Below, one piece after another: positions 16,661 to 61,573 of a DNA stretch of 64,000 bases. The notes under the pieces are model-generated. The model did not search any database. It was not told the DNA's origin and was given only the letters and a program-made list of their open reading frames with translations. Source of the DNA: Planctomycetota bacterium (GTDB lineage: Bacteria; Planctomycetota; Planctomycetia; Pirellulales; Pirellulaceae); contig JAPLNL010000011.1 of assembly GCA_026692905.1 (NCBI GenBank), positions 62,001-126,000 of the forward strand. Direction: 5' to 3'. A program made the translations under genes and the position numbers. Numbering within the stretch: position 1 is the first letter of the stretch; each line of letters begins with the position of its first letter.

Positions 16661-16782
16661 TAAGGCGAGCGGCAGAATGAAAACGAAAACTACCAGTTGT
16701 AGTTTGGGACCATTATCCCGTACGCATAAACGGACGGGACAATGGTCCCATCCTACGATAAATCTAGGTCTGCCGCTTGCCT
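16661..16782. repeat. TIR-bounded element with family B hairpin
   Basis: The left end taaggcgagcggcagaatga (16661-16680) is mirrored by the right end tctgccgcttgcctca (16769 on). The core is a hairpin of gggaccattatcccg (16706) and cgggacaatggtccc (ending 16749). The same core recurs after hom at 47240-47300. It occupies most of the gap 16528-16845. Confidence 0.75.
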
Positions 16783-16845
16783 CAGAAGGAAAGGAGCATG
16801 AGCGCCCAATCCTTTAAACAACCCGATCAGTCTACCGCCAGACGC

Positions 16846-19560
16846 CTATAGCGTTTTGCTCTTAGCCTCTGGAGTTAACTCAGACGCGGGAACCATCTTG
16901 GCGACTTTATCGTCGGACTTCAAAAGTGCCGTATCTAGTTCTATCTCGCGGCCCACGCTTTCGTGTTCGATCGAATGCTGCAGATACTGAACCGCTTCGT
17001 CGATCGTGTCCGCTTGCATGAGCAAGAACTCACCCTTACGAATCAGCTTCAGAGCTCGATCGACCGCGTTTTGCCAGCCTTGCATTTCGTGAATTTCCTT
17101 CACGCGTTTGCCACCATCCATTCCTTGCTTGAATAACGACATGATCTCGCCAGGCTGTCGCCCTCGCAGATACTGGTCTTCATACAAAATAATCCGATCG
17201 AAATGGTCAGCCAGGATTTCACCTTGGCGAATCATGTCGACATCTCGTCGATCTCCAGCCGCCGAATAGATTACCGTTCGGCTTGGGTGCGGGAATTGAT
17301 CGAGTGTTTCCGCGATAGCAAGAAGCGAGGATTGGTTGTGACCGTAATCGACAACGACAGTCGCACCATGGATTTCCATCAAGTTAAAACGGCCCGGAAC
17401 CTTGTCCATGTGCGACGAGAAGGACTCCAGCCCAAGCCGAATCTGCTCACATGGCATTCCAAGAGCCCAGCAAGCGCCGGCAGCAGCCAAAACGTTTTCC
17501 ACTTGGAACCCAATCCGGCCGTTGTGAGTCAACGGAATGCGATCCAACGATAGCAGGACAAAATCGGTGTCCCCTTCGGCGAGTATAACAGCGTTATCCC
17601 GAACAAATGCTCCGCGTCCGCCCTTGGCGCGGTGAGCCGAAAGAACAGGATCATTGCCATCCAGAGCAAAGAAGACGACACTACCTTTGCATTTTTCCGC
17701 CATCTCGGCGGTGAGAGGATCGTTGGCTTTCAGAACCCCGTAACCATTCTTGTGAACCGCTTCAATGATGCAACGCTTCACTCTCGCAAGTTGTTCAATT
17801 GTCTCGATATCTGCAAGCCCCAGGTGATCCCCTTCACCGATGTTGGTCACAACACCAACATCGCACATATCAAAACCGAGACCCTCGCGAAGAATGCCAC
17901 CACGGGCTGTTTCCAACACGGCGGCCTCTACCGATGGGTTCATCAGGACTGATCGAGCGCTCTGCGGACCGCTGCAATCACCCGAGTCGATGCGTCGACC
18001 TGCGATGTATATTCCATCGGTGCAAGTCATCCCAACCTTTTTGCCTGTGCACGCAACCAGGTGTGCAATCAATCGAGTTGTTGTTGTTTTTCCGTTCACG
18101 CCTGTGACGCTAACGATAGGCACTCGACCGTTGTTGTTCGAAGGATACATCATATCGATGATCGCTTGCCCAACAGGTCTCGGTGTTCCAGAGGAAGGTT
18201 CGATGTGCATACGCAAGCCAGGTCCGGCGTTGACTTCCACGATCACTCCGCGCTGGCCCTGGAGCGGCTGCGTAATGTCCTGAGCAACAACGTCGACGCC
18301 TGCGATGTCCAATCCAATGACTCGGGCCGCTTCTACGCATTGACGAGCAACATCCGGGTGGACGAGATCGGTAACGTCAGCAGCCGTTCCGCCGGTACTC
18401 AGATTCGCATTGCGTCGAATCAGGACCTTCTTGTTGAGCGGCGCGATGGTGTCTGGCGTAAGTCCTTGCTCGAGCAAAACTCCCAACGCAACCGCGTCGA
18501 TTTTGATTTTGCTCAGCGAAGTGCTGTGTCCATCGCTGCGACGTGGATCTAGATTCACAATGTCGATCAGATGCTGAACTGTAGACTGGCCATCGCCGAT
18601 CACATGTGCTGGCTCGCGACGTGCCGCGGCCACCATCTTGCCACCGATGACGAGTACGCGATAGTCGTCGCCGGGTGCATGGCGTTCGCAAATGATCGAA
18701 CTACCTTCTTCGCGAGCAGCAAGGTATGCGGCTTCGACTTGTTGTCGATCTTGAAGATTCGTAGCAACTCCTCTTCCGTGGTTGCCATACTGAGGCTTAA
18801 CAACAACAGGCAATCCGATTTCTTCGGCAGCTTCCCAAGCATCTTCAGCGCTCTCAACAGGACGACCTTCAGGAGTGGGAACTCCGATCGTTTTGAGCAA
18901 CATTCGAGTCAAGTCTTTATCCTGTGCGATCGACTCGGCAATGGCGCTCGTGCTGTCCGCTTCCGCTGTGCAAATTCGTCGTTGAAGATGGCCATGTCCG
19001 AGTTGAACTAGACTTCCCTCATTCAAACGTCGCCAAGGAATACTGCGAGCTCGGGCCGCTTCGACAATAGCCTTGGTGCTTGGCCCTAAGCAAACGTCGT
19101 AACCGTACTCCTTGAGCTTTTCCACTTCTGCGTTCACGTCGAAGGGAGTGTCATGAACAGCAGCGAGGATCAGTTCGAAGGCTTTTTCAATGCAAGCCAG
19201 CCCAAGCTTCTCTTCTTTGAAAGCGATGGCGACTTTGTAGATTCCGTCCGTATTGGTCTCGCGAGCTCGGCCATAGCCGACCGGAGTTCCAGCCAGCGAC
19301 TGAAGCTCCAACGAAACGTGCTCAAGAATATGGGCCATGTACGTCCCGCGTCGAAGTCGCACAAAGAATCCACCGCGTTCGCCAACGCTGCAGCGATGTT
19401 CGACCATTGTTGGCAACCATGCCATGAGTCGTTCGTTAAATCCCGGAATCATTTCCGAAGAAGTATCCTTGAGTTCTTCTAGGTCTACCCAAGCTTCGAG
19501 CACTGGGAAATTCGCCCAGATGTTCGGACCTCGGAGTTTGTTTACCTTGAGAATCTGCAT
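16846..19560 (-). CDS. cphA: Cyanophycin synthetase
   Basis: ATP-dependent synthesis of the storage polymer multi-L-arginyl-poly-L-aspartate. At 904 residues it has the usual CphA length and order. An N-terminal domain (1-~160, with AHILEHVSLELQSLAG) comes first, then an ATP-grasp domain (~215-480, with VVVKPQYGNHGRGVATNL and VEVNAGPGLRMH). A Mur-ligase-like domain follows (~485-880), with P-loop GVNGKTTTTRLIAH near 487-500 and VVDYGHNQSSLLAI. All ligase motifs look intact. No cyanophycinase (cphB) or arginine/aspartate catabolic gene is adjacent, so polymer breakdown must be encoded elsewhere. A relative acting on other substrates cannot be excluded. Confidence 0.93.
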   Translation of the reverse strand: MQILKVNKLRGPNIWANFPVLEAWVDLEELKDTSSEMIPGFNERLMAWLPTMVEHRCSVGERGGFFVRLRRGTYMAHILEHVSLELQSLAGTPVGYGRARETNTDGIYKVAIAFKEEKLGLACIEKAFELILAAVHDTPFDVNAEVEKLKEYGYDVCLGPSTKAIVEAARARSIPWRRLNEGSLVQLGHGHLQRRICTAEADSTSAIAESIAQDKDLTRMLLKTIGVPTPEGRPVESAEDAWEAAEEIGLPVVVKPQYGNHGRGVATNLQDRQQVEAAYLAAREEGSSIICERHAPGDDYRVLVIGGKMVAAARREPAHVIGDGQSTVQHLIDIVNLDPRRSDGHSTSLSKIKIDAVALGVLLEQGLTPDTIAPLNKKVLIRRNANLSTGGTAADVTDLVHPDVARQCVEAARVIGLDIAGVDVVAQDITQPLQGQRGVIVEVNAGPGLRMHIEPSSGTPRPVGQAIIDMMYPSNNNGRVPIVSVTGVNGKTTTTRLIAHLVACTGKKVGMTCTDGIYIAGRRIDSGDCSGPQSARSVLMNPSVEAAVLETARGGILREGLGFDMCDVGVVTNIGEGDHLGLADIETIEQLARVKRCIIEAVHKNGYGVLKANDPLTAEMAEKCKGSVVFFALDGNDPVLSAHRAKGGRGAFVRDNAVILAEGDTDFVLLSLDRIPLTHNGRIGFQVENVLAAAGACWALGMPCEQIRLGLESFSSHMDKVPGRFNLMEIHGATVVVDYGHNQSSLLAIAETLDQFPHPSRTVIYSAAGDRRDVDMIRQGEILADHFDRIILYEDQYLRGRQPGEIMSLFKQGMDGGKRVKEIHEMQGWQNAVDRALKLIRKGEFLLMQADTIDEAVQYLQHSIEHESVGREIELDTALLKSDDKVAKMVPASELTPEAKSKTL

Positions 19561-20155
19561 GACTTCCTCTGTTTACTTTAGTTGTTGTTTGGAGAGAACC
19601 TTTGCTAGCACTCTATTGTGTTTCGAACGAGACTCAGGCGATACAGCCTATAGCCCAGTTTTTCAAATCCCACGATTTGACTGGCTGATCCACGATCGAA
19701 GCGAGCTCAAGTGCTTGCGGTCTGAGCCGGATAACGTTGCAAACCGCGGGCCAAGGGCATTTTGTTTGGTATTGATCTCTAATTCCATTGGAAAAATCGC
19801 AAAAGGTGGTCTTGGCCGACTCTCGGTTTGCAAAGGACTGACATCGTTTCGACGGCAAGCCACATTCACAATGATGTCAATTCATTTGGCCTCCAGGACA
19901 ACAAGATCAATCTGTCGGTCAGCTGGCCTGATAACATGACAATACAATCGCATTTGTCGCCATAACCCAAAAACTTCGTCCAACGATAATTGGTATGGAA
20001 GAAAAAACGGCCTTTTTTCCAGACTCCGACGTAACACTATCCTGAATACTCGTTTCCCACGAATACGTTCATTCCGAAACTCATATCCGCCCTTCGCCGC
20101 AAGATTTTGTTGATTGAAAACGACGACGAGCACCTTGGCCCCAAAAGGGAGCAAA
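19561..20155. other. Gene-free region upstream of the tRNA-Leu/rpsL locus
   Basis: About 600 bases with no convincing gene, hairpin or repeat. It should hold the cphA promoter on one side. Frames seen here are short and lack ribosome sites. Confidence 0.45.
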
Positions 20156-20320
20156 ATGTCTGAATTAAATGGCCAAGCTAGTCGAAACACGACTGTGTCG
20201 CACAACTCTGGGAAAGCTACCATTCCTTGGGCCACCTTGGGAAAACGAAACCAATTGTCTCGGCTGAAATGGTGCCGGGAGGAATTTGGAGGAAAAACCG
20301 CGGTTGGACTTGTCCGATAG
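20156..20320 (+). CDS. Possible small basic protein
   Basis: A 54-residue frame (begins MSELNGQASRN) is preceded by a good ribosome site (aaagggagc, 6-8 bases before the ATG). It is basic in its second half (GKRNQLSRLKWCREEFGGK). It has no signal peptide or known motif. The upstream site is the main support, and the frame could be chance. Confidence 0.35.
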   Translation: MSELNGQASRNTTVSHNSGKATIPWATLGKRNQLSRLKWCREEFGGKTAVGLVR

Positions 20321-20377
20321 TACTGGTCAGCATTAAACTCATCCTCCCAAATTCATCGTCATGCGGTTGATACACTT

Positions 20378-20462
20378 GCCAAAGTGGCGGAATCGGCAGA
20401 CGCGCTGGACTCAAAATCCAGTGTCCTTAACAGACGTGTGGGTTCGATTCCCACCTTTGGTA
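20378..20462 (+). tRNA. tRNA-Leu (anticodon CAA)
   Basis: Complete class II tRNA. The acceptor gccaaag pairs with ctttggt (20455-20461; G-U at the first pair). The anticodon stem ctgga/tccag flanks the loop ctcaaaa with anticodon CAA at 20412-20414. A long variable arm (tgtccttaacagacgt) and the T-arm gtggg-ttcgatt-cccac follow. CCA is not encoded. It reads UUG codons and lies about 80 bases before rpsL. Confidence 0.93.
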
Positions 20463-20541
20463 CTGCTCAAATGACGATGGTTTTGGAATTTGGTACTTCC
20501 TCAATGTAATTCACTCAGTTCGCAAGGCGACTGCCGTCCGT

Positions 20542-20910
20542 ATGCCAACCATCAATCAATTGGTTCGAAAAAACCGCGTTGTTCAACACAAGACAACGAA
20601 AAGCCCTGTTCTTGAGCAATGTCCACAAAAGCAAGGTGTTTGCTTGTTGGTCAGGACAATGACTCCAAAGAAGCCTAATTCTGCACTTCGCAAAATCACC
20701 CGGGTTCGCCTGAGCAACGGCAAGGAAGTCACTGTTTACATTCCAGGCGAAGGCCACAATTTGCAAGAACACTCGATCGTGCTCGTGCGCGGTGGTCGTG
20801 TTCGCGATTTGCCAGGAGTGCGTTACCAAGTCGTCCGCGGAAGCCGAGATACTCTCGGAGTTGTCGGCCGCAAGCAATCTCGCAGCCGCTATGGCGCGAA
20901 AAAGGCTTAA
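20542..20910 (+). CDS. rpsL: 30S ribosomal protein S12
   Basis: Decoding-centre protein of the small subunit, 122 residues. Conserved blocks [50 protein letters not shown] and [16 protein letters not shown] are present. Lys in TPKKPNS is the wild-type residue at the streptomycin-critical site. The region just before it, [13 protein letters not shown], departs slightly from the common CTRVYTTTPKK. It is followed by rpsG after 50 bases. The usual companions fusA and tuf do not follow. Confidence 0.97.
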
Positions 20911-20960
20911 TCCTTATCCAGTATCTCCAGCTTCCTTGTAGACTAACTTAGAATATACCT

Positions 20961-21431
20961 ATGGGCAAAATTACCGCTTCTCGCACCAGCCTGCGACCTG
21001 ACCCTCGATTCAATTCCTTGCTCGCATCCAAGTTTATTAACTGCTTGATGTACGACGGGAAGAAAACGACCGCCCAAGGCGTGTTTTACAGCGCTCTCGA
21101 TGAAATAGCCGAAAAGATCAAGGATCGGCCATCGATTGAAGTTTTCGAGCAAGCGATCGAAAACGTAAAGCCATACATCGAAGTTCGCTCCAAGCGAGTT
21201 GGTGGTGCTTCCTACCAAGTTCCAATGCAAGTGAACAAGAACCGCCAGCAAAGTTTGGCGTTTCGCTGGGTACTAGGCGCAGTTCGGGACAAAAAGGGCC
21301 GAGCGACTCACCAAAAACTTGCTGACGAACTGATGGCCGCTTACCGCAAAGAAGGTACAGCGATTACCAAACGAGAAAACACTCATCGTATGGCAGACGC
21401 AAACAAAGCATTCGCTCACTTCGCTTGGTAG
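20961..21431 (+). CDS. rpsG: 30S ribosomal protein S7
   Basis: Small-subunit head assembly protein that binds 16S rRNA, 156 residues. Typical blocks are [52 protein letters not shown] and [20 protein letters not shown]. It is the last gene of a two-gene rpsL-rpsG unit and is closed by a strong terminator, so the str operon is truncated here relative to most bacteria. Confidence 0.97.
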
Positions 21432-21454
21432 TTTCTCACGGAACCTCCGACTCA

Positions 21455-21488
21455 TCAAAAGCCCGCTTGTTGCAAGCGGGCTTTTTTT
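21455..21488 (+). terminator. Terminator after rpsG
   Basis: The stem aaaagcccgcttg / caagcgggctttt with a 3-base loop is followed by a T run (21457-21488). Confidence 0.9.
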
Positions 21489-21585
21489 ATGCGCTAGCTG
21501 TGGTTGACGCGGCTCCTCGATTTCTGATATCGGTTCCTTGCGTTCCGAAAATCTCATTCTCGAAGCTCTCGCAAACCCAACACAA

Positions 21586-22443
21586 ATGGTCACCATTTCC
21601 CCTCCAGTCTCTGCCAACACGTCCAAATCGGAACGCAACCAGAGGTTCCTAAGATCCTTCACGAAAGTCCTCAAACGGACCGTTCCTCCGCTTCTCGCTC
21701 TCTATTTCATCCCCTGGATTTTCTTGACCTACTTGGCCATGGGATTTGCGGATGTGCTTCGCAACAGACCAAGAACCATCAGGACAATGGATCGATACTT
21801 TGCAGGCAACGGCGTATTCACTTGGTTGCTGTCTCCCTTTAACCTACTCATGGACCTGTTCTGCTTACCCTACTGGAATCGCGGAATCTATCGTTTGCAA
21901 GACTTGCCCGAGGGCTACCGATCCGAGATTCAAACGCTGATCGATGCTGCCGCAGATCGCAATCTTGTCGGTCTCCTCGAATCCAAAATGCAAGAGAAGA
22001 AACGGGGCATGATCTTCTTCAAGTGGTATGGCACCAACATTTCTGGCTCTGTCGAAATGCCAGAATACCACCAGCCATTCAAGTATATCCGAACCATTGG
22101 CGTTTCGATTTTCAACAAAAGACAATCCACCGGTGAGCACTTCGGACCTTTGCGTGTGACTCTGCGAGTTTTGTACAACATCAACGATATCGACAATAAG
22201 AACGTCTATATCAAGGTTGGGGACAAGACTCACTATTGGCAGGAAAACAAACTCTTCATATTCGATGACACACTGCAACACCAATCGTGCAATGAGTCCG
22301 ATGCGATGCGATACTGTCTCTTCGTAGACATACTCCGCCCGTCACCATTCCCTTGGTTGATGAGCGGCGTCTTGACCGGTATTCGATTGATGATGGCTCC
22401 GCTGCGAGCGATTTTCTACAAGCACTGGACAGTGATCAAGTAA
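21586..22443 (+). CDS. Aspartyl/asparaginyl beta-hydroxylase-like membrane protein
   Basis: A 285-residue protein with one membrane segment near residues 34-54 (PPLLALYFIPWIFLTYLAMG). Its C-terminal domain resembles the 2-oxoglutarate/iron AspH family (PF05118). Matching blocks are GEHFGPLRVTLR (H185), VGDKTHYWQENKLFIFDDT (212-229) and LQHQS (H232), then FVDILRP. In characterised AspH the first iron ligand is the His of the HLGL motif. Here the equivalent segment reads RVLYNIN, with no His, while the second-ligand His (H232) is kept. The protein may therefore be inactive or use a different metal site. I chose ATG 21586; a TTG at 21538 is the alternative. Confidence 0.7.
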   Translation: MVTISPPVSANTSKSERNQRFLRSFTKVLKRTVPPLLALYFIPWIFLTYLAMGFADVLRNRPRTIRTMDRYFAGNGVFTWLLSPFNLLMDLFCLPYWNRGIYRLQDLPEGYRSEIQTLIDAAADRNLVGLLESKMQEKKRGMIFFKWYGTNISGSVEMPEYHQPFKYIRTIGVSIFNKRQSTGEHFGPLRVTLRVLYNINDIDNKNVYIKVGDKTHYWQENKLFIFDDTLQHQSCNESDAMRYCLFVDILRPSPFPWLMSGVLTGIRLMMAPLRAIFYKHWTVIK

Positions 22444-22597
22444 GGTCCTACCGAACTTAGCCGGGGAAGCCCAGGCCTAACGCCCGTCATCGCCTGAGCG
22501 AACTTGGGCCCGGCGAACTCGTGCCCAACGTTCGCAACATGCTTGGTGTGCTAAGAACCAACTCATGTGCAGACTCGGGAAGGATGGCGCTTGAACA

Positions 22598-26846: not shown

Positions 26847-28295
26847 ATGCATTGCGAGAGTTTTTCTAATGATTTGATCCTGTCCGCTTGCGATTGCCTT
26901 GTCCTGGGACTCGACAATGAGTGGGCAAAGTCATCGGAATTTGCGATTCTTGACGAGGCCACGAACGGTCTACTGAAGCGGCTGATCGAGACCGAGGAGA
27001 TCTCGACCAAACCTCTAAAAGTGACGCAAATCGTTGCCCCCGCCGGCTTGCAAGTGAAACTGCTGCTGACGATTGGACTTGGCTCGCCAGGCTCATGTGA
27101 TCCAAATGTTTACACGCGCGCTGCCGCTGCAGCGTTGAAAGTCATCGCGTCCAAGAAACGCGGCATCGTACGGGTTGTCGGCTTCCAAGGAACGGGGCTT
27201 TCGCTTCGAGGTGCGGTTTCGGGCGCGATGGTCGGTTGCGTGGGCCAAGACCTCTTTCGCAAAGAAAAATCGCTTTACCAGCCCGATTGCATCCAATGGG
27301 TTGGGCTCGATGAAGCGACCGTCCAAGCTGGCGTTATTTTGGGGGAAGCGATCAACTTCACCCGTCGGCTTGTCAATTTGCCGCCCAATTACCTCTATCC
27401 AGAAACTCTGGCGGATGAGGCAATGCAATTGGGGCGAGAGCATGCGGTGACAGTCGAAGTTTGGGATCGAAAGAGACTGGAGGCGGAGGGGTGCGGCGCT
27501 CTCCTGGGCGTAGCTCGCGGCTCCGTCCGCGATCCTCGCTTGGTCATTTTGCGATATTACGGCGCTGCGTCGGACGCAGCTCCAACCGTACTCGTGGGCA
27601 AGGGCGTGACGTTTGACAGCGGTGGATACTCGATCAAACCGACCGATGGAATGTTAACCATGAAATGCGACATGGCTGGCGCGGCTACCGTGCTCGGGAT
27701 CATGAAAGCCGCCGCTCAATTCCAGGTGAAACACAATCTGGTCGCTATCATCGGCCTGGTGGAAAACTTGATCTCTGGGGACGCGTTCAAACTTGGCGAT
27801 GTCCTAACAGCCCGAAGTGGCAAGACGATCGAAATCCACAACACCGATGCCGAAGGACGTTTGGTACTAGCCGATTGCCTGAATGTCGCGCTCGACCAAA
27901 AGCCCGCTAGGATTGTCGACTTTGCGACTCTGACCGGTGCATGCTGTGTTGGATTGGGACTCGAAATTTCCGGATTGATGACCAACAACGAAGCGTGGCA
28001 GAGCGAAATCAAAAAGTCAGCCGATGCGTGCGGTGAATACACATGGCCATTGCCGATGCACGCGTTTTTTTCCGAGCAAATCGCAGGCAAAATCGCAGAC
28101 ATCAAGAACGTCGGCGAAGGACGATACGGCGGTGCTATGACGGCCGCCAAGTTCCTCCAAGAGTTTGTGGCGGATGTCGCTTGGACCCACATCGATATCG
28201 CAGGACCTGCGTTTCTCGATAGCCCAAAACCATGGTGCGACGCCGGTGGAACCGGGACGTTGGTACGAACCTTCGTCGAGTTGCTTTGTAGCTAA
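26847..28295 (+). CDS. pepA: Leucyl aminopeptidase, M17 family
   Basis: Cytosolic two-metal aminopeptidase of 482 residues. The C-terminal catalytic domain has the metal and substrate residues of the family: VGKGVTFDSGGYSIKP near 250-265, MKCDMAGAATVLG near 271-283 and the family signature NTDAEGRLVLADCL near 331-344. The N-terminal domain (~1-165) is the usual macro-like domain. It probably forms a hexamer and takes part in peptide turnover. The stop codon TAA is also the first three bases of a repeat head (taaggcggggcggcag). Confidence 0.92.
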   Translation: MHCESFSNDLILSACDCLVLGLDNEWAKSSEFAILDEATNGLLKRLIETEEISTKPLKVTQIVAPAGLQVKLLLTIGLGSPGSCDPNVYTRAAAAALKVIASKKRGIVRVVGFQGTGLSLRGAVSGAMVGCVGQDLFRKEKSLYQPDCIQWVGLDEATVQAGVILGEAINFTRRLVNLPPNYLYPETLADEAMQLGREHAVTVEVWDRKRLEAEGCGALLGVARGSVRDPRLVILRYYGAASDAAPTVLVGKGVTFDSGGYSIKPTDGMLTMKCDMAGAATVLGIMKAAAQFQVKHNLVAIIGLVENLISGDAFKLGDVLTARSGKTIEIHNTDAEGRLVLADCLNVALDQKPARIVDFATLTGACCVGLGLEISGLMTNNEAWQSEIKKSADACGEYTWPLPMHAFFSEQIAGKIADIKNVGEGRYGGAMTAAKFLQEFVADVAWTHIDIAGPAFLDSPKPWCDAGGTGTLVRTFVELLCS

Positions 28296-28466
28296 GGCGG
28301 GGCGGCAGAATGAAAACGACCTTAGCACGACGCGCAAGCTAGTGACTTAGCACGACGCGCAAGCTAGTGAATCGACTATCCAGTTCACTAGCTTGCGCGT
28401 CGTGCTAGCTAGTGAATCGACTATCCAGTTCACTAGCTTGCGCGCCGTGCAAGCTATGTGCCGCCC
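28293..28466. repeat. Composite element: shared head plus clustered family A hairpins
   Basis: The head taaggcggggcggcag (28293-28308) begins at the pepA stop and runs on as aatgaaaacgacc. It is followed by two right-facing and two left-facing arms of family A (28322-28456), partly tandem. The right side shows tgtgccgccca, an imperfect inverse of the head. Confidence 0.75.
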
Positions 28467-28493: not shown

Positions 28494-28564
28494 GGGGAGA
28501 GCGAGGCTCCTGCCGAGCTTGCGACGCCACGGTTCGGCTGGAGCCTCACCCGCCTCACCCTCCC
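28494..28564. repeat. Palindromic repeat family C
   Basis: The arms ggggagagcgaggctcctgc and a mirrored right side ending caccctccc enclose a short loop. Related hairpins are at 44504-44564 and 61471-61532. It lies just downstream of the DUF1501 stop. Confidence 0.8.
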
Positions 28565-30068: not shown

Positions 30069-30175
30069 TAAGGCGAGCGTAAGGTTAAAAGCGACTAAAG
30101 TGGCATAGGCTTCTAGCCTGTGTATGAACGTTTTCCCAGGCTGGAAGCCTATGCCACAGCAAAGCTGCCGCACTA
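30069..30175. repeat. Palindromic repeat family D inside the DUF1549-DUF1501 unit
   Basis: The head taaggcgagcg (30069-30079) is followed by the hairpin tggcataggcttctagcctg (30101-30120) and its inverse caggctggaagcctatgcca (30137-30156). gctgccgcact follows on the right. It sits between two genes normally read together. Confidence 0.75.
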
Positions 30176-34152: not shown

Positions 34153-35707
34153 TATTGCTTTCCTTCTTCTGGTCGCTTGCTTTGCGAGCCAAAAATTCGC
34201 GAGCGCGATCGATTCGCCGACAGCGACTCGTGTCGAACAGCAGTCCCCTCCAAACATTCTGTTGATCCTAGCGGATGACTTAGGGTATGGAGACGTCCAG
34301 TGCTACAATCCCGAATCTCGCATTCCAACTCCCAACTTAAACCGACTAGCCAGCGAGGGGATGCGGTTCACCGATGCACATAGTCCGTGCACCGTTTGCA
34401 CGCCGACTCGATATAGCTTGATGACTGGGCAAATGGCCTTTCGAGTACCCAACGGCGGCCGCGTTTTCACTGGAGCGGGCGGGCCGTCCTTGATTGCATC
34501 CGATCGTCTGACGTTGCCAAAAATGCTCCGCGATCATGGCTATTCCACTGCATGCGTTGGCAAGTGGCATATCGGGCTGACGTTTTACGATCACGATGGC
34601 AAGCCGATTCACAAGGACAGTGTCGAGTCGGTGAAGTCGATAGACTATTCACGACGGATCGATGGAGGACCACTTGATTGTGGATTTGATCGCTTCTTTG
34701 GAACTGCTTGCTGCCCCACGACCGATTGGTTGTATGCTTACATCGATGGCGATCGAATTCCGGTCCCACCGACCGAGTTGCTCAACAAAACGAATCTGCC
34801 CAAGCATCCGTACGCGAACGACAATCGTCGAGGTTGGCATGCTCCCGATTTTGACTTAGAAGAAGTCGACATGAAGTTTCTGGAAAAGAGTCAGCAGTTT
34901 CTGCGCGAACATGTCCGTGTAACGCCAGACAAGCCATTCTTCCTTTTCCATGCAACGCAGGCCGTTCATTTGCCTTCGTTTCCAGGTGCCGATTTTAAGG
35001 GCAAGACAAAATCAGGCCCTCATGGCGATTTCATTTTTGAGTTTGACCACATTGTTGGCGAGTTAACCAAGACGCTGACGGAGTTAGGCTTGGCCGACAA
35101 TACATTGGTCATCGTCACTAGCGACAATGGCCCTGAGGTTCCGACTGTGGTTCATATGCGTCAAGATCATAATCATGACGGTGCCAAGCCGTGGCGTGGG
35201 GTCAAGCGTGATAACTGGGAAGGTGGTCACCGGGTTCCATTCCTCGTTCGTTGGCCAGGCAAGGTTGCAGCTGGTTCGACTTCGTCTCAGATCACATCTC
35301 TGTGTGACGTATTCTCGACTGCCGCTGACTTGGTTGGACAGAAAGTGCCCGACAATGCGGGAGAAGATAGTTTTAGCTTGTTGCCTATTTTGCTGGGCAA
35401 CGATCCCGAGCCCATTCGACCTTATCTATTGCAGCAAGCCTTTTCCGGTGCGCGAGACCTAGCGATTCGGCGAGGTAAGTGGAAGTACTTGGCGCACAAA
35501 GGTTCCGGCGGCAACAACTACGAAACCAACCCAGAGCTCAAGCAATATGCGTTGCCGGATACGGCGCCAACGGCGGCTGGCCAATTGTTTGATCTCGAAA
35601 AAGATCCAGGTGAAACGGAGAACCTAGCGTTAAAGAACCCGGAGATTGTCGTAGAACTAAAATCGCTATTAAAGCAATCGATCGAAACAGGCCGAAGCCG
35701 ACGCTAG
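34142..35707 (+). CDS. Secreted sulfatase
   Basis: Type I sulfatase of 521 residues that probably removes sulfate esters from polysaccharides. The signal peptide MARNIAFLLLVACFASQKFASA is at the start. Metal-binding DD (D45, D46) lies in LILADDLGYGDV. The formylglycine site CTPTR is at residues 86-90, with the following YSLMTGQ. GKWHIG and SDNGPE also match the family. Maturation needs a formylglycine-generating enzyme not present here. Its last ~300 bases are repeated as a fragment at 38575-38890. Confidence 0.92.
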   Translation: MARNIAFLLLVACFASQKFASAIDSPTATRVEQQSPPNILLILADDLGYGDVQCYNPESRIPTPNLNRLASEGMRFTDAHSPCTVCTPTRYSLMTGQMAFRVPNGGRVFTGAGGPSLIASDRLTLPKMLRDHGYSTACVGKWHIGLTFYDHDGKPIHKDSVESVKSIDYSRRIDGGPLDCGFDRFFGTACCPTTDWLYAYIDGDRIPVPPTELLNKTNLPKHPYANDNRRGWHAPDFDLEEVDMKFLEKSQQFLREHVRVTPDKPFFLFHATQAVHLPSFPGADFKGKTKSGPHGDFIFEFDHIVGELTKTLTELGLADNTLVIVTSDNGPEVPTVVHMRQDHNHDGAKPWRGVKRDNWEGGHRVPFLVRWPGKVAAGSTSSQITSLCDVFSTAADLVGQKVPDNAGEDSFSLLPILLGNDPEPIRPYLLQQAFSGARDLAIRRGKWKYLAHKGSGGNNYETNPELKQYALPDTAPTAAGQLFDLEKDPGETENLALKNPEIVVELKSLLKQSIETGRSRR

Positions 35708-38344: not shown

Positions 38345-38574
38345 CTAGCTTTTCGATTTGTTGAAATGATAAAGATATTTGTCGTTTTCGCAACATAATT
38401 GCGGCGTAAAATTCAATAAAAAGCGAAGTTTCCCCCGGCAACCCCAAAAAAAGAAGAGTGGCTTTGTTGGGCGCGCGGGCGATTAAGGGGCCATCTATTG
38501 TGGTTGTGTTGCGATTTTGCTCTTGATGGATGTCTAACTTAGTTTTGGGCGTTGCATTTTCTATAAGGCGAAGA

Positions 38575-38890
38575 TCGCGAGCCCATTCGACCTTGTCTTT
38601 TGCAGCAAGCCTCCACTGGTGCACGAGACTTAGCGATTCGGCGAGGTAAGTGGAAGTACTTGGCGCACAAAGGTTCCGGCGGCAACAACTACGAAACCAA
38701 CCCAGAGCTCAAGCGATATGCGTTGCCGGATACGGCGTCAACGGCTGTTGGCCAGTTGTTTGATCTCGAAAAAGATCCAGGTGAAACGAAGAACCTAGCG
38801 ATTAAGAAACCGGAAATCGTCGAAGGACTAAACGCGTTATTAAAGCAATCGATCGCAACAGGCCGAAGCCGACCACTCGCTGAGCGCTAG
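38575..38890 (+). pseudogene. 3' fragment of a second sulfatase copy
   Basis: From agcccattcgacctt (about 38580) to the stop this matches 35409-35707 closely at DNA level: the DLAIRRGKWKYLAHKGSGGN and LFDLEKDPGET blocks are nearly identical. The metal site and CTPTR motif are absent, so it cannot be active. The end differs (PLAER instead of R). It is probably a relic of a duplicated sulfatase. Confidence 0.8.
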
Positions 38891-44243: not shown

Positions 44244-44298
44244 GTTGTTGATCTCGTTTTCGTTCTAACATTCGTTCTAACAGATGGGTTGCCACGAT

Positions 44299-44385
44299 TA
44301 AGCGAGCGGCAGCCTGAATAATACCTTAGCACGACGCGCAAGCTAGTGAAGAGGATAGTGGATCACTAGCTTGCGCGTCGTGCTA
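44299..44385. repeat. Shared head plus family A hairpin
   Basis: A head variant taagcgagcggcagcctgaa (44299-44318) is followed by a family A hairpin (tagcacgacgcgcaagctag at 44327, inverse ending 44385). It lies upstream of the LD-carboxypeptidase start. Confidence 0.8.
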
Positions 44386-44441
44386 AGCATACTTCGAACT
44401 CGTTCCAAGGCTCCGCCTGGCAACGAGAATAATAACCCATG

Positions 44442-44637
44442 GGAGGGCGAGGCCACCGCTCTAAACATGTTTCCAACGAGTTTACCTAAGTCATTCATTG
44501 CTCGGGAGGGTGAGGCTCCTGCCGAACCTTTGCACCGTTGGCTCGGCAGGAGCCTCGCCCTCCCTAAGGTTTTCAATGGAATTGACTTTGCAAAGATGTT
44601 TAAAGATGTTTACAGCGGTGGCCTCACCCTCCCGAGT
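44442..44637. repeat. Nested family C palindromes
   Basis: An inner hairpin (gggagggtgaggctcctgcc at 44504 and its mirror ending at 44564) lies inside an outer inverted pair: gggagggcgaggccaccgct at about 44442 and agcggtggcctcaccctccc ending about 44635. The gap 44244-44748 contains only such repeats. Confidence 0.75.
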
Positions 44638-48574: not shown

Positions 48575-48649
48575 GAATTTTATGTGCTTTTCCCCCCCTA
48601 AAAAGGCGACGTTGTGAAGCAATTTCTGCTGCAAAAACCCCTCTTTTTT

Positions 48650-48718
48650 GTAGCGAAAGTCGTCAAGACTTTCGGCTGCATCGCGCAAACGACCGAAACT
48701 CTTGACGAGTTTCGCTAC
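48650..48718. repeat. Palindromic repeat family F
   Basis: The left arm gtagcgaaagtcgtcaagac and the inverse right arm ending gacgagtttcgctac form a 69-base hairpin. A second copy is at 58123-58191. A half copy of family E (ccctcgctcacgcgtcgggtt) follows at 48773-48793. The gap 48575-48832 holds only these. Confidence 0.85.
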
Positions 48719-50611: not shown

Positions 50612-50648
50612 GGGCTGTCCCGAAATTTCGGCGCGTCTTCCATAAGTC

Positions 50649-50931
50649 ACCCTCCCTCTGGGAGGGTCGGGCCTTCGGCCCGGGGAGGGTGAACTGACTT
50701 GTGCGATGGTTGTTGGCACTTCAACCTCCCCTCGCTACGCTCGACCCTCCCTGAGGGAGGGTGTCTATCGACCCCGGTTTGTTCTACAGGGATTTAAGTT
50801 CTGCAGGGATTTAAGTTACCCTCCCTCTGGGAGGGTCGGGCCTTCGGCCCGGGGAGGGTGAACTGACTTGTGCGATGGTTGTTGGCACTTCACCCTCCCC
50901 TCGCTACGCTCGACCCTCCCTGAGGGAGGGT
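50649..50931. repeat. Two 114-base direct repeats with internal hairpins (family G)
   Basis: Copies at 50649-50762 and 50818-50931 differ at one base (tcaacctc versus tcaccctc). Each contains accctccctctgggagggt, gggccttcggcccgg and a closing accctccctgagggagggt-type hairpin. The 55-base spacer carries a small tandem (cagggatttaagtt twice). Confidence 0.93.
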
Positions 50932-54830: not shown

Positions 54831-54861
54831 CGCACGCCCGCGCGAAGCGTCTTTATGCTCT

Positions 54862-55665: not shown

Positions 55666-55878
55666 ATGCTAAAGTACATTGCGGTCCGACAAAACAGCAC
55701 TACCAGCCCAACACCCGTGCCGCGAGCACGTCAGAGGCAATTGATTCGAGAGTCAGCGGCGCCTTTGTCGATTGCGAAACGAGGCTCCTACCAACAGTCG
55801 ATTGGTATGGGTGGAACCAATGGTAGGCGAGTTTTGGCGGCGATCAATCGGAATTTGGGGACGTTACATCTGCGGTAA
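55666..55878 (+). CDS. Possible small basic protein
   Basis: A 70-residue frame (MLKYIAVRQNSTTSPTPVPR) with a G-rich stretch (cggggggatt) before the ATG. It is basic, with no motif, signal or membrane segment. It could be a real small gene or chance. The surrounding 55450-55889 holds nothing else. Confidence 0.3.
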   Translation: MLKYIAVRQNSTTSPTPVPRARQRQLIRESAAPLSIAKRGSYQQSIGMGGTNGRRVLAAINRNLGTLHLR

Positions 55879-55889
55879 ACTCGCTCGTT

Positions 55890-56351: not shown

Positions 56352-56438
56352 GATTTGAGTTAGTCTAGTTTCCCAAATCGGTCCGACCAAGGGGCTTGTT
56401 GGTTTAATGGGTTTGCCGTTAGGCAAAGTTCCGATCCT

Positions 56439-56489
56439 AACCCGAAGCGTGAGCGAGGGGCACGGAATCCCTCGCTCACGCTTCGGGTT
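56439..56489. repeat. Palindromic repeat family E, compact copy
   Basis: aacccgaagcgtgagcgagg with an inverse right arm ending cacgcttcgggtt; 51 bases. An identically sized copy is at 61703-61753. Confidence 0.9.
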
Positions 56490-56617
56490 CGGAAGTTTTA
56501 CAACCTTCTATGAGGAACGGATATCCTCTCGAACCGCTTGGTCAACCAGCATCTTCGGAATACACTGCGTGTATGCGGCCAGTTCTAAGACTATGGGGAA
56601 AAAAGCGAGGCGGACGA

Positions 56618-57619
56618 ATGTCCGGCTGGTGGTTCGTTGGTTCGCTGGGCGAAGCTCTCTTTTTCGCGTCGTTCTTTCTTGTCGGTGTTGTGTGCCTTAC
56701 CACCATTGTGGGTTGGCAATTTCTGTCGCCAAAGACCCAAGTTGTTCGTATTGGCTATGGATTTTGGCTACTTACGACCGTATCCGCGTCTTTTATCGTG
56801 ATGGGAGCGGTTGGTTTTTGGTACCGTGTGCTGAAGGTTGCAACCAGCGACGAGCATCGAGAGATCATCGCAAAACATGGATTGGTCTCACGCCCAAACA
56901 AACCTCGCAACAAAATCCTACTGCCTCCGATGGTCCCGTTGCTGACCCCATTTACGGATAGCCCAGGGGCAAAACTAGCCTACCGATTACCCGGTGAATG
57001 GCCTGGGACGGGGGCTCTGATTTCCATTGGTCTGTTTGCAATGGCATGGAATGCCATGATTGCTGTCTTTTGCGTTTTCGCCGTCGGCGGATTCTTTCGA
57101 GGCGAGATTCAATATCGACTCCTAATCCTACTCGTTCCGGGTATCTACATTGGCTTGCGGTCAGGCCAATTGTTTTTCCGATCTTATATTCGGGAGATTG
57201 GCATCGGTTCGACGACAGTCGAGATCGAAGATTTGCCGTTGGTGCCCGGCAGAACGTACAAGTTACTTTTAGTCCAGTATGGCCGACTCGTGATCAAGAA
57301 ACTCTCAATTCGACTAGTATGTGAGGAAGAAAGCACTTATCATTTTGGAACAGATGTTCGGACTGAGCGGGAGATCGTTCGCTTCCAAAATATTTTGGAT
57401 GTGGGACGTTCGCGAATCGATTGGGGACGACCATTGGAACTGGAATGCCAGGTCTCGATTCCCTCTGATGCGATGCACTCTTTTCAGAGTTTACACAATG
57501 CAATTCACTGGAAAATTATTGTTGAAGGAGAGGCGAATCGATGGCCATCGTACTCCCGAAGTTTTCCCGTAATCGTGTACCCTCACGTTCGCATCAAACC
57601 GGTCAGTCAGCCGTCATGA
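56618..57619 (+). CDS. Membrane protein with arrestin-like domain
   Basis: A protein of about 333 residues. The ATG at 56618 has a gagg site 8 bases upstream; the frame is open further up (to 56510). Two N-terminal membrane segments (~10-32, 42-64) are followed by a cytoplasmic loop, two more segments (~125-150, 155-175) and a C-terminal beta-rich domain. The segment LELECQVSIPSDAMHSFQ ... IHWKIIVEGEA has the look of an arrestin/Spo0M-like sandwich. Function unknown. Its stop overlaps the next gene as ATGA. Confidence 0.7.
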   Translation: MSGWWFVGSLGEALFFASFFLVGVVCLTTIVGWQFLSPKTQVVRIGYGFWLLTTVSASFIVMGAVGFWYRVLKVATSDEHREIIAKHGLVSRPNKPRNKILLPPMVPLLTPFTDSPGAKLAYRLPGEWPGTGALISIGLFAMAWNAMIAVFCVFAVGGFFRGEIQYRLLILLVPGIYIGLRSGQLFFRSYIREIGIGSTTVEIEDLPLVPGRTYKLLLVQYGRLVIKKLSIRLVCEEESTYHFGTDVRTEREIVRFQNILDVGRSRIDWGRPLELECQVSIPSDAMHSFQSLHNAIHWKIIVEGEANRWPSYSRSFPVIVYPHVRIKPVSQPS

Positions 57620-57987
57620 TTCGATTGCTTGGATTACAGCCGACATACATGTCGAACGATGTTATCGAGTTCGAGTACCGTGTTTCCAACATCCCTCAAA
57701 ATTCCATTGCAGCGGTCGAAGTCTCTGTCGTGTGGCTCACTGAAGGCAAAGGAACCGAAGACCTTGGGGTGCATTTCTTCCAGAGACTGACGGGCAATTC
57801 ACTAGCCGCATCGGACTGGTCTATCCCTCAAAGTGTCCAAGTCCCACTTCCGGATTCGCCACTTTCCTACGAAGGGAAATTGCTGAAAATCTCCTGGTGC
57901 GTTCGAGTTCGTTTTTATCTCAACGACGGCACAGAACTGGTTGCACAGCAACCCTTTTATTTGGGAACGGTTACTCGCGAAGTTTAG
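57616..57987 (+). CDS. Small arrestin-like protein
   Basis: A 123-residue protein starting MIRLLGLQPTYMSNDVIEFE at the ATGA overlap with the upstream gene. It is all-beta in appearance: EVSVVWLTEGKGTEDLGVHF, then VQVPLPDSPLSYEGKLLKIS and WCVRVRFYL. The pattern repeats that of the upstream protein's C-terminal domain, so the two probably act together. The frame also reaches 57541, but the coupled start is preferred. Confidence 0.7.
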   Translation: MIRLLGLQPTYMSNDVIEFEYRVSNIPQNSIAAVEVSVVWLTEGKGTEDLGVHFFQRLTGNSLAASDWSIPQSVQVPLPDSPLSYEGKLLKISWCVRVRFYLNDGTELVAQQPFYLGTVTREV

Positions 57988-58013
57988 TCGCGAACGATTG
58001 TCCTCAATCGTTT

Positions 58014-58119
58014 TAGGCGGGCGGCGGGTTCAATCTTGCCTAGCACGACGCGCAAGCTAGTGAATTGGATAGTTGTTCACTAGCTTGCGCGTCGTGCTAA
58101 GGTTGTTTTCATGTTGCAG
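58014..58119. repeat. Shared head plus family A hairpin, inverse head on the right
   Basis: A head variant ttaggcgggcggcggg (58014-58029) precedes a family A hairpin (58041-58099). The right side ggttgttttcatgttgcag (58101-58119) is the inverse of the head's gcagaatgaaaacgacc part. Confidence 0.75.
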
Positions 58120-58122
58120 TTC

Positions 58123-58191
58123 GTAGCGAAGGTCGTCAAGACTTTCGGCTACATCGCCTAAACGACCGAAACTCTTGACGAGTTTCGCTAC
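58123..58191. repeat. Palindromic repeat family F, second copy
   Basis: Closely matches 48650-48718. Its right end (tttcgctac) contributes the stop codon of the SelA-like gene (58188-58190 on the minus strand). Confidence 0.85.
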
Positions 58192-59555
58192 TCAGTTGCA
58201 GAGCACAACTGCTGAACAAGAATCCGGTCTTCATCCGGTTCCATGGAACGCAGTACGAGCTCGACATGGTCGGACTGCACGTTTGTCCAGACTGGCACTT
58301 CACTGGCCGCAAACAACTCCGCCATCGCGGATGGGCTCATCGATTTTGGAAACAGCTGAATCGTGGTGGAATCCAAGCGTTGGCTGCTCCAAACACCCGC
58401 CCCGATGCGACACGATTTGCGAGCCACAACGACTCGTTCGAACATCGGATTCACGGTAAGCTGAGCCATGATTCGTTCGGCTCGGTTTTGCAAGTTTTCG
58501 AAACTCGTCGAAAGCGATGCACCGATTGGCAACTGCCGCCATTGCTCGATCGATTCGGATGCTTGCAATGTACGTAGTAGCGCCGCCTTGGTAATGCTGC
58601 TAGCATGCCCCCCCATTGCATCCACAATCTTGAGGACATTTTCCATGGCGGTTTGCTTCCCAAGGATAATGCCGCATTCTGGGCCGCCGAGAAGTGCGTC
58701 ACCTGGCACGATGATAAGTTCGACACCATCGTCCCATGCGTCCGCGATCACTCTGCTCGTTATCCCTAGCCCGGACAAGTCATGAATCGTTCCATCCAAC
58801 AGGATTTCCGCAATATCAGCACCTGCTTGTTTTGCCGCCGTTAGCCCGCGATTGCGATGCTCCAATCGAGATTCAGCTGGCAGTGAATTCGGCGAAGCGA
58901 TCAGCAATCGTGCCCCCGGTTCCTGCAACGCCTCTGCAAAATCGCTCGGCATGCAATCTTGATTGGTCCCAATCTCATAGGTCTTCGCGTTCGCTTGATC
59001 GAGAATCGTTCGAACATTGCCTCCTTGCGTTGCTCCAGCCTGAGGAAGCCGAACACAATCGACCCGCGGCAAGACCCAACGTGCGCGGTCCTTTGATGAG
59101 GTATCGGCCAAGGCAAGAACAAAAAGAGCTAGTGTCGTACTGGGAACAACCGCGACGACTTGCGCGCTGGTCAAGCCGATCAATAAACTTCGGAGTTGCT
59201 GATCGAGCTTGACCGTCTCTGCAAAATGACTTTGGAGATGATTCACTTGCGTGATGGCATCGGAACACATTCGATGCGAGCACCATCGATTGGAAAAAAA
59301 CTCGCCTGTTGCGTTAATGCCCGGCAAAAGGCCGGGCTGTGCGTTTCGCAGCCAAGGCTCTGCAGCACTTTCCATCCATCGACCGGCTTGCTGCAAAATT
59401 TGTTGAATATTGCCCGATTGAAATTGGTCTTTGAGTCCTATCTTCTGTGCTGCCTCCTTTATCGCATTGACAAGCGTCGGTTGAGAAACCAATTGGGAGA
59501 GCTGTTTAATAGCTTCGATAGGTAAGAGATCTTTGAATGGAATTGGGAATCTCAT
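58188..59555 (-). CDS. SelA-like PLP-fold protein lacking the PLP lysine
   Basis: A 455-residue relative of L-seryl-tRNA(Sec) selenium transferase and of D-glucosaminate-6-phosphate ammonia lyase. The N-terminal GINATGEFFSNRW (79-91) matches the SelA INATG block. IIVPGDALLGGPECGIILGK (281-300) matches the SelA block that normally reads GDKLLGGPQAG. The PLP-binding Lys is replaced by Ala at residue 287. The usual PLP chemistry is therefore unlikely, and a structural or regulatory role is more probable. No selB or selC is nearby. The stop lies inside a family F repeat. Confidence 0.82.
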   Translation of the reverse strand: MRFPIPFKDLLPIEAIKQLSQLVSQPTLVNAIKEAAQKIGLKDQFQSGNIQQILQQAGRWMESAAEPWLRNAQPGLLPGINATGEFFSNRWCSHRMCSDAITQVNHLQSHFAETVKLDQQLRSLLIGLTSAQVVAVVPSTTLALFVLALADTSSKDRARWVLPRVDCVRLPQAGATQGGNVRTILDQANAKTYEIGTNQDCMPSDFAEALQEPGARLLIASPNSLPAESRLEHRNRGLTAAKQAGADIAEILLDGTIHDLSGLGITSRVIADAWDDGVELIIVPGDALLGGPECGIILGKQTAMENVLKIVDAMGGHASSITKAALLRTLQASESIEQWRQLPIGASLSTSFENLQNRAERIMAQLTVNPMFERVVVARKSCRIGAGVWSSQRLDSTTIQLFPKSMSPSAMAELFAASEVPVWTNVQSDHVELVLRSMEPDEDRILVQQLCSATE

Positions 59556-59798
59556 GCGAGTTTGGAATCTTGGTAATAGTGAGAGTAACAGGCACCTTCC
59601 ATGTGCCGTCCATGTGCCGTCCGCAAGCTACGCTGAAATCTAGTTTAACAGTCAGCAATCCGGTGTGCGATGAATCGCGAATGACACCTCGCTTAAATCG
59701 TACCTGAAAACCGATCCTATTCCGAGCCTTGCCACCCAGCATAGCGAAAACGGTACAATGGTCTCGTAAACGTCCAATGCCTTCGAAAAGGACTTGAA

Positions 59799-60170
59799 AT
59801 GATGTCAGCACCAAAAAATGTGTTAGGGACCAATATTCAACCGTGCTCCATGGATCCGCCAACGGGGTTTTTTCGCGACGGTTGCTGTCGATCTGGAGCC
59901 GACGATCAAGGGCTTCATTTAGTCTGTGCCGAAATGTCGCAGGAATTCCTCGAGTTCTCGCGGGACAGCGGCAACGACTTGATCACTCCTGTGCCAGCCT
60001 TCCGTTTCCCGGGGCTTAAGCCTGGAGACAGATGGTGTTTGTGTGTACAAAGATGGAAGGAAGCGTTTGAGGCGGGCATCGCGCCGAAAGTCGTACTGGA
60101 ATCCACACATATTTCAACACTCGAGTTTGTCGATCTCGAAGATCTTCAAGCTCACGCCGTTGAAGCTTAA
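59799..60170 (+). CDS. DUF2237 family protein
   Basis: A 123-residue conserved protein. The family pattern is very clear: NVLGTNIQPCSMDPPTGFFR, DGCCRSGADDQGLHLVCAEM, EFLEFSRDSGNDL and FPGLKPGDRWCLCVQRW. Several Cys are conserved (CSMDP, CCRSG, VCAEM, WCLC). Function unknown. Two ATG codons are adjacent at the start (59799 and 59802), with aaagga upstream. The next gene, kbl, starts about 20 bases after the stop. Confidence 0.88.
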   Translation: MMSAPKNVLGTNIQPCSMDPPTGFFRDGCCRSGADDQGLHLVCAEMSQEFLEFSRDSGNDLITPVPAFRFPGLKPGDRWCLCVQRWKEAFEAGIAPKVVLESTHISTLEFVDLEDLQAHAVEA

Positions 60171-60190
60171 ACCTGTCAAAAGAATTTTGA

Positions 60191-61363
60191 ATGAACGCAT
60201 TATTTTTAGAGCACTTAGCGGCTACCAACCAGACCATTCGGGACGCTGGGACATTCAAGACCGAGCGAGTCATCGATTCGTCGCAAGGGACGATGGTACG
60301 GATTGCTGACGGCCGTGAGTTGCTCAATATGTGCGCGAACAACTATCTCGGACTCGCGCAGCATCCGATGGTTCGGCAAGCCGCTAACGATGCTCTCGCG
60401 CGTTGGGGATACGGTTTGGCCTCCGTTCGTTTCATTTGCGGCACCCAAACGATTCACAAAGATTTGGAAAATCGCCTCAGCCGATTCTTGGGGATGCAAG
60501 ACACGATTCTTTACAATTCTTGTTGGGACGCAAACGGCGGATTATTCGAGACCATTCTTGGGCCAGAGGATGCGATCATTTCCGATGAGCTCAATCATGC
60601 GAGCATCATTGATGGCATCCGTCTTTGCAAAGCGCAGCGACATCGGTACTTGAACAACAATATGGACGACCTCAAAGCAAAACTTGAGGCAGCACGCTCC
60701 GCGCGCTTCCGTTTGATTGCGACCGACGGGATCTTCTCAATGGACGGAACCATTGCGAATCTTGCGGCCATCTGCGAACTAGCAGATCAATACGATGCAA
60801 TGGTGATGGTGGACGATTCTCACGCCGTTGGCTTCGTGGGTCCACGTGGTCGAGGAACACATGAACATTGTGGTGTGATGGATCGCGTCGACATTATGAC
60901 TGGAACGCTTGGAAAAGCCCTCGGTGGTGCAAGCGGAGGTTACACGTCCGGGAACAGCGAAATGATCGATTTGCTACGACAGCGATCGAGGACTTATTTG
61001 TTCTCCAACACCATTGCTCCGCCGATTGTGGCCGGTTCGATTCGAGCCCTAGAACTGCTAGAGGAATCGACCGAATTGCGAGATACGCTCGAGTCCAATA
61101 CTCGGCTATTCCGTGAGGAAATGGAGCGCTCTGGGTTGAACATTTTGCCCGGCTCCCATCCGATCGTACCGGTCATGTTGGGAGACGCAGCCAAAGCTGC
61201 ACATGTAGCCAAAGCGATGCTGGACGACGGAATCTATGTGATAGCATTCTCCTATCCGGTCGTCCCACAGGGCAAAGCTCGGATCCGCACTCAAGTTTCC
61301 GCAGCGCACACGCACGACCAACTTCGGGCGGCTGCTCTTTCTTTTGCCAAGCGTGCAAGCTAA
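60191..61363 (+). CDS. kbl: 2-amino-3-ketobutyrate CoA ligase
   Basis: Glycine C-acetyltransferase acting in threonine breakdown, 390 residues. Class II PLP enzyme with [60 protein letters not shown] and the PLP lysine K242 in [16 protein letters not shown] threonine dehydrogenase (tdh) gene is usual beside kbl, but none is seen here. An alpha-oxoamine synthase of another specificity is less likely because of the overall match. Confidence 0.92.
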
Positions 61364-61371
61364 GAAGGTGG

Positions 61372-61573
61372 TAAGGCGAGCGGCAGCACTGATTATGTCG
61401 GGAGGCAGAGGCTCCTGTTGTAAACAGACGTCGTCCGCGCTATTTGTTACTCGGGGAGGATTTGTTACTCGGGGAGGGTGAGGCTCCCGCCGAACCGTGG
61501 CGTCGCAAGCTCGGCAGGAACCTCGCTCTCCCATTGGAACCTTGGCGGGTTGTTTTCAGCCTGCCGCATACCT
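61372..61573. repeat. TIR-bounded element containing a family C hairpin
   Basis: The left end taaggcgagcggcagcactg (61372-61391) and the right end gttttcagcctgccgcatac (to 61573) are imperfect inverse copies. Inside is a family C hairpin (ggggagggtgaggctcccgc at 61471, right arm ending 61532), preceded by a small tandem (ttgttactcgggga twice). Confidence 0.75.

Follow-up and report, generated by a model that had tools for sequence, protein, structure and literature searches.

Inverted-repeat shells, often of constant length, carry several families of REPIN-type core in a Pirellula-like planctomycete

The window analysed here is a 64,000-nucleotide stretch (contig JAPLNL010000011.1, assembly GCA_026692905.1; G000:C11:62001-126000) of a Pirellula-like draft genome from a freshwater planctomycete (G000; 5.96 Mb, 148 contigs). 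It contains a series of short units in which one shared end sequence is combined with different hairpin cores. We consider it probable that these units represent a shell resembling a miniature inverted-repeat transposable element (MITE), moved in trans by a DDE transposase, which has repeatedly acquired, and sometimes exchanges, a core of the REPIN type (paired repetitive extragenic palindromic, REP, sequences). In the proposed mechanism, a trans-acting DDE transposase would cut at two inverted ends of ~25 bp, insert the shell at TTA or TAA and duplicate 3 bp. Each end comprises GGCGAGCGGCRG, two variable bases and TGAAAACTACC or a core-specific variant. The core between the ends would be the element of a separate machine, the REP-associated tyrosine transposases (RAYTs). 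Seven core families would occupy the same place, with the chimeras multiplying as lineages that each possess their own second end, and cores may also be replaced in place.

An earlier note on this DNA had described a short head sequence recurring at seven sites. Its recurrence is real, while its extent needed correction, as the ends reach ~25 nt: GGCGAGCGGCRG, two variable bases and TGAAAACTACC make up a 25-bp terminus of the shell. A search of the window for TAAGGCGAGCGGCAG with at most three mismatches returned 8 matches compared to 1.77 expected, a number reached by 0 of 100 shuffles; two of the eight (16490 and 42548) have no recognised hairpin unit. The match is exact at 16661 and 61372 and contains two to three mismatches at 30069, 44298 and 58013. 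The ends at 7262 and 28293 are absent from this list and were found by a 28-nt profile of the end. Across the whole genome, the head pattern (up to two mismatches) occurs 172 times, compared to 22 times for the reversed pattern. The 28-nt profile was applied to a census sample of 1.235 Mb (21% of G000, on contigs picked for length and known matches and hence non-random), yielding 100 matches of at least 14 bits versus 6 on the reversed sequence, an excess somewhat inflated because the profile was trained on the sequence it was scored on. Exact copies of GGCGAGCGGCAGNNTGAAAACTACC were found in 21 stretches among named genomes, confined to five metagenome-assembled Pirellula/Planctomycetaceae genomes that possibly do not include the window's own. 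Across 27 genomes of the genus, GGCGAGCGGCAGNNTGAAAAC (up to two mismatches) is abundant in G026 (125), G000 (87), G010 (60), G023 (41), G024 (33), G025 (23) and G015 (9), with 0-1 matches in each of the remaining 20.

Different palindromes follow the head within the window, as the note had it: family A at 7.3, 28.3, 44.3 and 58.0 kb, B at 16.7 kb, D at 30.1 kb and C at 61.5 kb. All units lie on the forward strand. Two are complete: one with a B core (16661..16784; shell 16664-16781, 58-nt B REPIN at 16699..16756), flanked by the non-identical TAA on the left and TCA on the right, and one with a C core (61372..61575, flanked TAA..TAA; C hairpin pair of repeat family D6 at 61472..61532). The note also had an inverse copy closing at least three units. 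Such copies are clear at 16784 and 61575, but that at 58 kb is degenerate (gttttcatgttgcagttcg), with no clear flanking duplication. This A unit (58013..58122) retains its left end and a 61-nt A REPIN (58041..58101, repeat family D9), and is abutted by an F REPIN outside the shell (58120..58191, repeat family D8). No right end was recognised for the left end with A core at 44298..44387 or the left end with doubled A core at 28293..28454. A further left end, located by pattern match and profile, precedes the D core, a GTGGCATAGGC hairpin (30069..30157), and at 7262..7352 a degenerate left end accompanies a degenerate A core. The units at 16661 and 7262 occupy the corresponding positions in the sister species G026, which is ~90% identical to G000 (91% over the first query, 83-93% over longer matches); therefore both insertions predate the species split. 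Folding of five window units is more favourable than that of shuffled sequences (z -2.5 to -10.2). The hairpins are linked to the heads but also occur free of them: repeat family searches located an A REPIN (2003..2094) and two C hairpin pairs (28495..28555 and 44504..44564) without recognised ends.

What the first reading missed is that the hairpins are REPIN-type repeats, several of them tied to RAYT-like transposases, which also live outside the shell. Families A-G are mostly inverted pairs in the sample, and I occurs as a pair at locus L108, in line with REPINs being inverted pairs of short hairpins with a GTAG or similar tag. Genes matching PF01797 are flanked on both sides by A (L130, G000), B (L131, G000) or G (L310 and L316; G024 and G010), with no shell ends there, and an F repeat lies on one side of another PF01797 gene (L132, G000; L299, G026). 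The NCBIfam REP-associated tyrosine transposase model scores RAYT-B at 64.8 bits (8e-18) and RAYT-F at 61.8 bits (6e-17), both below the curated cut-off. The match for RAYT-A is weak and also below the cut-off (23.1 bits, 5e-5; 26.1 for the IS200 model). Identities are 23% over 65 residues for A versus B, 22% over 104 for B versus F, and 41% for A versus G. Judged from this gene context and similarity, cores A, B and G appear to be REPIN-type repeats tied to RAYT-like transposases, with at least three RAYT types probably serving the repeats and A and G sharing one type. The C, D, E and I cores are presumably likewise REPINs of a resident RAYT. Related RAYT-like genes at L033 (G000) and L318 (G023) are 58% identical and, by eye, share the same kind of neighbour gene. 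This gene group is bordered by F repeats in G000 and G026 (L033, L299), whereas its G023 member (L318) has half of an I repeat and an H palindrome alongside, and a change of repeat beside one transposase gene is possible.

The pairing of heads and hairpins in the sampled part of the genome exceeds chance, which speaks against their independent occurrence. With 16 mixed clusters (5 with an end) excluded, an end is present on at least one side of A in 32/55 cases, B in 5/10, E in 9/14, D in 2/10 and G in 2/10, compared to 9/3000 random 66-base stretches. The pairing is selective, with C at 2/43 and F at 0/37. The F value applies to a 60-nt rule; looser clustering places two F clusters near an end, and F lies beside an end at G026 C4:33312. 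The shell accommodates families A to E as well as G and I, and F almost never. At the loci examined in relatives, the same ends enclose G cores (G010, G023, G024, G015); in G024 they also carry G with an H palindrome nested in it and a variant of B, in G025 an I core, in G015 a C core plus the unclassified J, and in G026 A and B. Separately, F REPINs (GTAGCGAAAGTCGTCAAGACTTTCGG) at 48647-48718 and 58120-58191 belong to an abundant family that adjoins a RAYT-like gene, yet none of the 37 counted has a shell end under the 60-nt rule. A GACGGACTTCCAAGTCCGTC palindrome is nested in the G core of shell units at L107, L114 and L121 (G024).

Complete units were searched for up to a length of 420 bp. 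This yielded 79 distinct units, scored without their three flanking bases and with differing orthologous copies counted separately; a second scan, with the lower limit at 30 bp, returned 81. A script classed the cores of the 79 as E (23), A (15), B (13), G (12), C (3), G+H (2), and one each of A+D, I and H, leaving 8 unassigned. By eye, seven of the eight contain a shortened or variant REP: four are minis with half an E (63-64 bp), and A, G and D account for one each; the eighth is the J core. Identical 3-bp flanks were found for 31 of the 79, compared to 16.9 expected by shuffling, and 0 of 5000 shuffles reached 31. Where TTA or TAA is present on both sides, 28 of 32 units agree (binomial P 2e-5). 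Agreeing TWA pairs (W, A or T) amount to 5/7 for A, 6/6 for B, 7/8 for E and 4/4 for G, with the remainder in other classes. Within-class shuffles support flank identity for E (P 0.02) and G (P 0.003). Duplications of 2 bp and 4 bp were considered and rejected in favour of 3 bp, the 4-bp measure being reached by only 1/79. The flanks thus reveal a 3-bp TWA target duplication around the shell units.

Comparison of G000 with G026 revealed empty sites in one of the two species for three core classes, in agreement with duplication of 3 bp. At G000 C119:206377, TTA lies on either side of the B unit (TTA..TTA), and the corresponding G026 site has a single TTA. For the E unit at G026 C4:250, flanked TCA..TAA, G000 reads GCTCTAAGGTCG, with one TAA. 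The G unit at G026 C5:26630 is flanked TAA..TAA, while G000 has one TGA and a nearby mismatch. Three E units (G026 C4:815, C5:42075 and C31:14194) and one A unit (G026 C4:53910) are further insertions seen in one species only, with untidy edges. The units are thus MITE-like, with 25-bp inverted ends, units of 36-401 bp, a fixed 3-bp duplication and precise empty sites. Hence, the earlier suggestion of a non-autonomous element with interchangeable hairpins was largely right, given the shared ends, TWA duplication, empty sites and several cores.

Whether cores are replaced within an existing shell was addressed at 16 orthologous loci with an end and a recognisable core in both species. These were counted by hand within ~334 kb that could be aligned between the species, from 1.07 Mb of G026 sequence, with a decayed G000 core assigned by eye at two of the same-core loci (C119:280181 and C11:47262). 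Thirteen have the same core, whereas at three (C22:19631, C22:23364 and C29:185092) the G000 core is A and the G026 core E. Loci omitted as ambiguous are C119:296991, C112:49231, C119:161352, C11:38128, C119:280544 and C20:28788, with E or F nested in A in one species at C119:161352 and C11:38128; loci lacking an arm in one species (C29:48172 and C29:145903) and rows showing an end without a core were likewise set aside. The two bases following GGCGAGCGGCRG mark lineages, being CA in 16/30 A arms, AC in 17/24 G, GC or AA in 26/38 E and GA in 5/9 B. Arms with CA carry A 16 times, E once, G once (a decayed A by eye) and nothing recognised twice. An alternative that bears on the exchange step alone and leaves the shell untouched, namely that A and E inserted independently at one TWA site or that an ancestral nested A+E unit lost a layer, is possible though not the reading we favour. 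Nested A(E)A units do exist, so loss of a layer is conceivable, and a collapsed E mini lies beside the A unit at G000 C29:185092. On the other hand, the G026 unit opposite C22:19631 combines an E core with a CA arm, a type otherwise associated with A and found with E nowhere else, and in the G000 unit at C22:23364 A and an A-type arm follow the left half of E. In another G026 unit, C113:12901, a CA arm leads into nine bases of A, after which the core is E. We read such mismatches between arm and core as probable replacement of the core inside an existing shell, presumably via recombination or template switching in the shared arms. A stronger version, in which a near-fixed-length DDE-type shell serves as a dock for in-place swapping of REPIN cores belonging to several RAYT types, is put forward tentatively. 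If true, the same insertion could change which RAYT recognises it while its genomic address is unchanged.

The structure of the units bears on how the cores arrived. Units were oriented by their better-matching end, a procedure favouring a contrast between constant and variable ends. This end has the consensus GGCGAGCGGCAG, NN, TGAAAACTACC across A, B, C, E, G and I units, while the second end is core-specific: GGTTCCAATATACC for A, ACCTAGATCTACC for B, CTCTGCTTATGCC for C (three units), GGAAAAACATACC for E, ATTGCAGTATCCC for G and GGTTCGAATGTACC for I (one unit). A length of exactly 111 or 112 bp was found for 36/81 units and is the commonest total in A, B, E and G, although core and linker differ by eye (A 61 nt without linker, E 54 + 7, B 58 + 4, G ~56 + 6). 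Lengths depart from this for C (190-291), I (124) and J (145). A constraint on end spacing or length-neutral replacement would explain the 111-112 bp mode. It is improbable that nested insertion alone, in which RAYTs place REPINs into the palindromic centre of a MITE as preferred target, each armed REPIN arising separately with no exchange, accounts for this arrangement. It would agree with REPINs being also free and beside RAYT-like genes, and with the layers seen (E inside A, H inside G). However, second-end consensus and linkers are specific to each core class, so the chimeras multiplied as units, and the total of 111-112 bp recurs despite cores of 54-61 nt. Furthermore, a REP-free shell was sought among the 81 units and no convincing case was found, with one J core unclassified and one 36-bp match probably due to chance. 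The combination of distant RAYT types with near-identical ends argues for core capture or exchange and against divergence of one composite, an argument that is weaker for A versus G. It is most unlikely that the ends are extended REPIN tails with RAYTs moving everything: nearly all complete units do hold a REP-type core, but this is largely refuted by the 3-bp TWA duplication (IS200/IS605-type tyrosine transposases are not known to make one), by REPINs beside RAYT-like genes without ends, by the same ends occurring with different REPIN families, and by the scarcity of ends at C and F.

At G000 C29:207683, C112:54579, L006 and L014 the same ends enclose only half an E REP, giving minis of 63-64 bp. 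These apparently represent a still shorter derivative that has multiplied as well. A half-sites, or a GTGTAGTCGTGCTAG unit, are tandemly expanded in or near shell units at G000 C29:185181-185300, C99:20713 and C119:304900.

The mobilising enzyme, presumably of DDE chemistry and acting in trans, was sought both by protein family and by position. Inverted end pairs 320-3500 bp apart were found in three places (C99, C29 and L120), enclosing a phosphatase-like frame (by eye), a 660-codon frame and no frame above 79 codons, respectively. A 2.1-kb end pair on C76 was rejected as an autonomous candidate, being two E units. These two 117-nt units (L129, G000:C76, 2042-2158 and 4062-4178) bracket a purD-like gene, identified by eye. 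An attC-like reading of the head was dropped on inspection by eye.

Several observations weigh against the proposed shell model. The 15 DDE_Tnp_1 matches in 7 draft genomes have no paired ends within ~1.5 kb, and a few have a single end-like match; no candidate was found with DDE_Tnp_1_2 in the same drafts or with DDE_Tnp_4 in G000. As many as 48 of the 79 units lack identical 3-bp flanks, the flank statistics count differing orthologous copies twice, and within-class shuffles for A (P 0.18) and B (P 0.10) are not decisive. The G000 sample contains 53 single ends versus 27 pairs. With respect to exchange, of the three loci with differing cores two fall within 4 kb of each other on the same contig, and the third (C29:185092) is a messy locus with tandem arrays and the collapsed E mini. 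Since RAYT-A and RAYT-G are 41% identical, the A and G cores may be related. A RAYT neighbour was looked for and not found for C, D and E cores in the genomes examined, and for I the candidates are relatives (58%) of the F-bordered RAYT, beside which a single I half lies.

Genomic placement differs between armed and free copies, based on crude open-frame gene calls. For intergenic A, B, D and E repeats, divergent gaps hold 11/38 armed versus 3/41 free copies (Fisher P 0.017), and for all families 13/50 versus 11/117 (P 0.008). This contrast fits two delivery routes, with TWA insertion for the shell and RAYT for free copies. The units link MITEs and REPINs, two classes of tiny bacterial repeat usually treated apart, and suggest a route by which REPINs may spread using another element's transposase, into promoter-side gaps where free copies are rare. 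They make it possible to test whether bacteria exchange repeat cores in place, and form a natural set of elements whose ends, and often length, are constant while the inside varies. Elsewhere in the window, a 300-nt direct repeat (35380-35679 and 38551-38850) is 89% identical over copies 3.2 kb apart, and a 120-nt direct repeat (50643-50762 and 50812-50931) is 98% identical.

Bacterial interspersed mosaic elements (BIMEs) are mosaics of REPs without target duplication; this assignment was rejected given the 3-bp duplication and several REPIN families in one shell. PIF/Harbinger elements follow a TWA target rule. The units are not filed as IS5/IS1031-like or PIF/Harbinger-like because no such DDE gene was found between these ends, although the TNA/TWA 3-bp duplication does fit. 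The IS1031 group of the IS5 family prefers TNA with a 3-bp repeat, as described in PMC12016507, similar to the TWA duplication seen here, while its member ISLrh has ends starting GAACCTG, unlike those of the shell. The neisserial intergenic mosaic elements (NIMEs), composed of dRS3 and RS, likewise combine one short inverted repeat with varied inner-repeat families. However, dRS3 is a 20-bp repeat and phage integration target, with no REPIN cores or 3-bp duplication mentioned in the sections at hand of PMC3898611, and its ATTCCC(N8)GGGAAT ends differ from GGCGAGCGGCRG..TACC here, so that the units are not NIMEs. QMITE2 of Coxiella burnetii is also a MITE containing a REP (GTAG), but has one REP type and direct repeats of 7-11 nt, and core exchange is not mentioned in the relevant passages of PMC5896051.

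Another close resemblance is to the flanking palindromes of PMC3733652, where REP dimers lie within a longer conserved palindrome, like the shell here, in A. variabilis (GTAG-15), H. neapolitanus (CGTC-1) and T. roseum (GTAG-23). No REP-free copy of the palindrome was found in A. variabilis or H. neapolitanus. The palindromes have one REP family each, and section 7 of PMC3733652 mentions no target duplication, whereas seven families, TWA duplication, empty sites and orthologous core differences are found here. The earlier note did not know the arrangement as described, and this holds in part: REP dimers within palindromes, and a REP-bearing MITE, have been published, while a description of one shell with several REP or REPIN families did not turn up in the open-licence PMC papers searched, to the extent of their accessible text. 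As in the REPIN/RAYT system (PMC3116915), A, B and G consist of hairpins in inverted pairs and are also found bordering RAYT-like genes; in contrast to that system, the repeats here also ride in a separate shell with inverted ends and target duplication.

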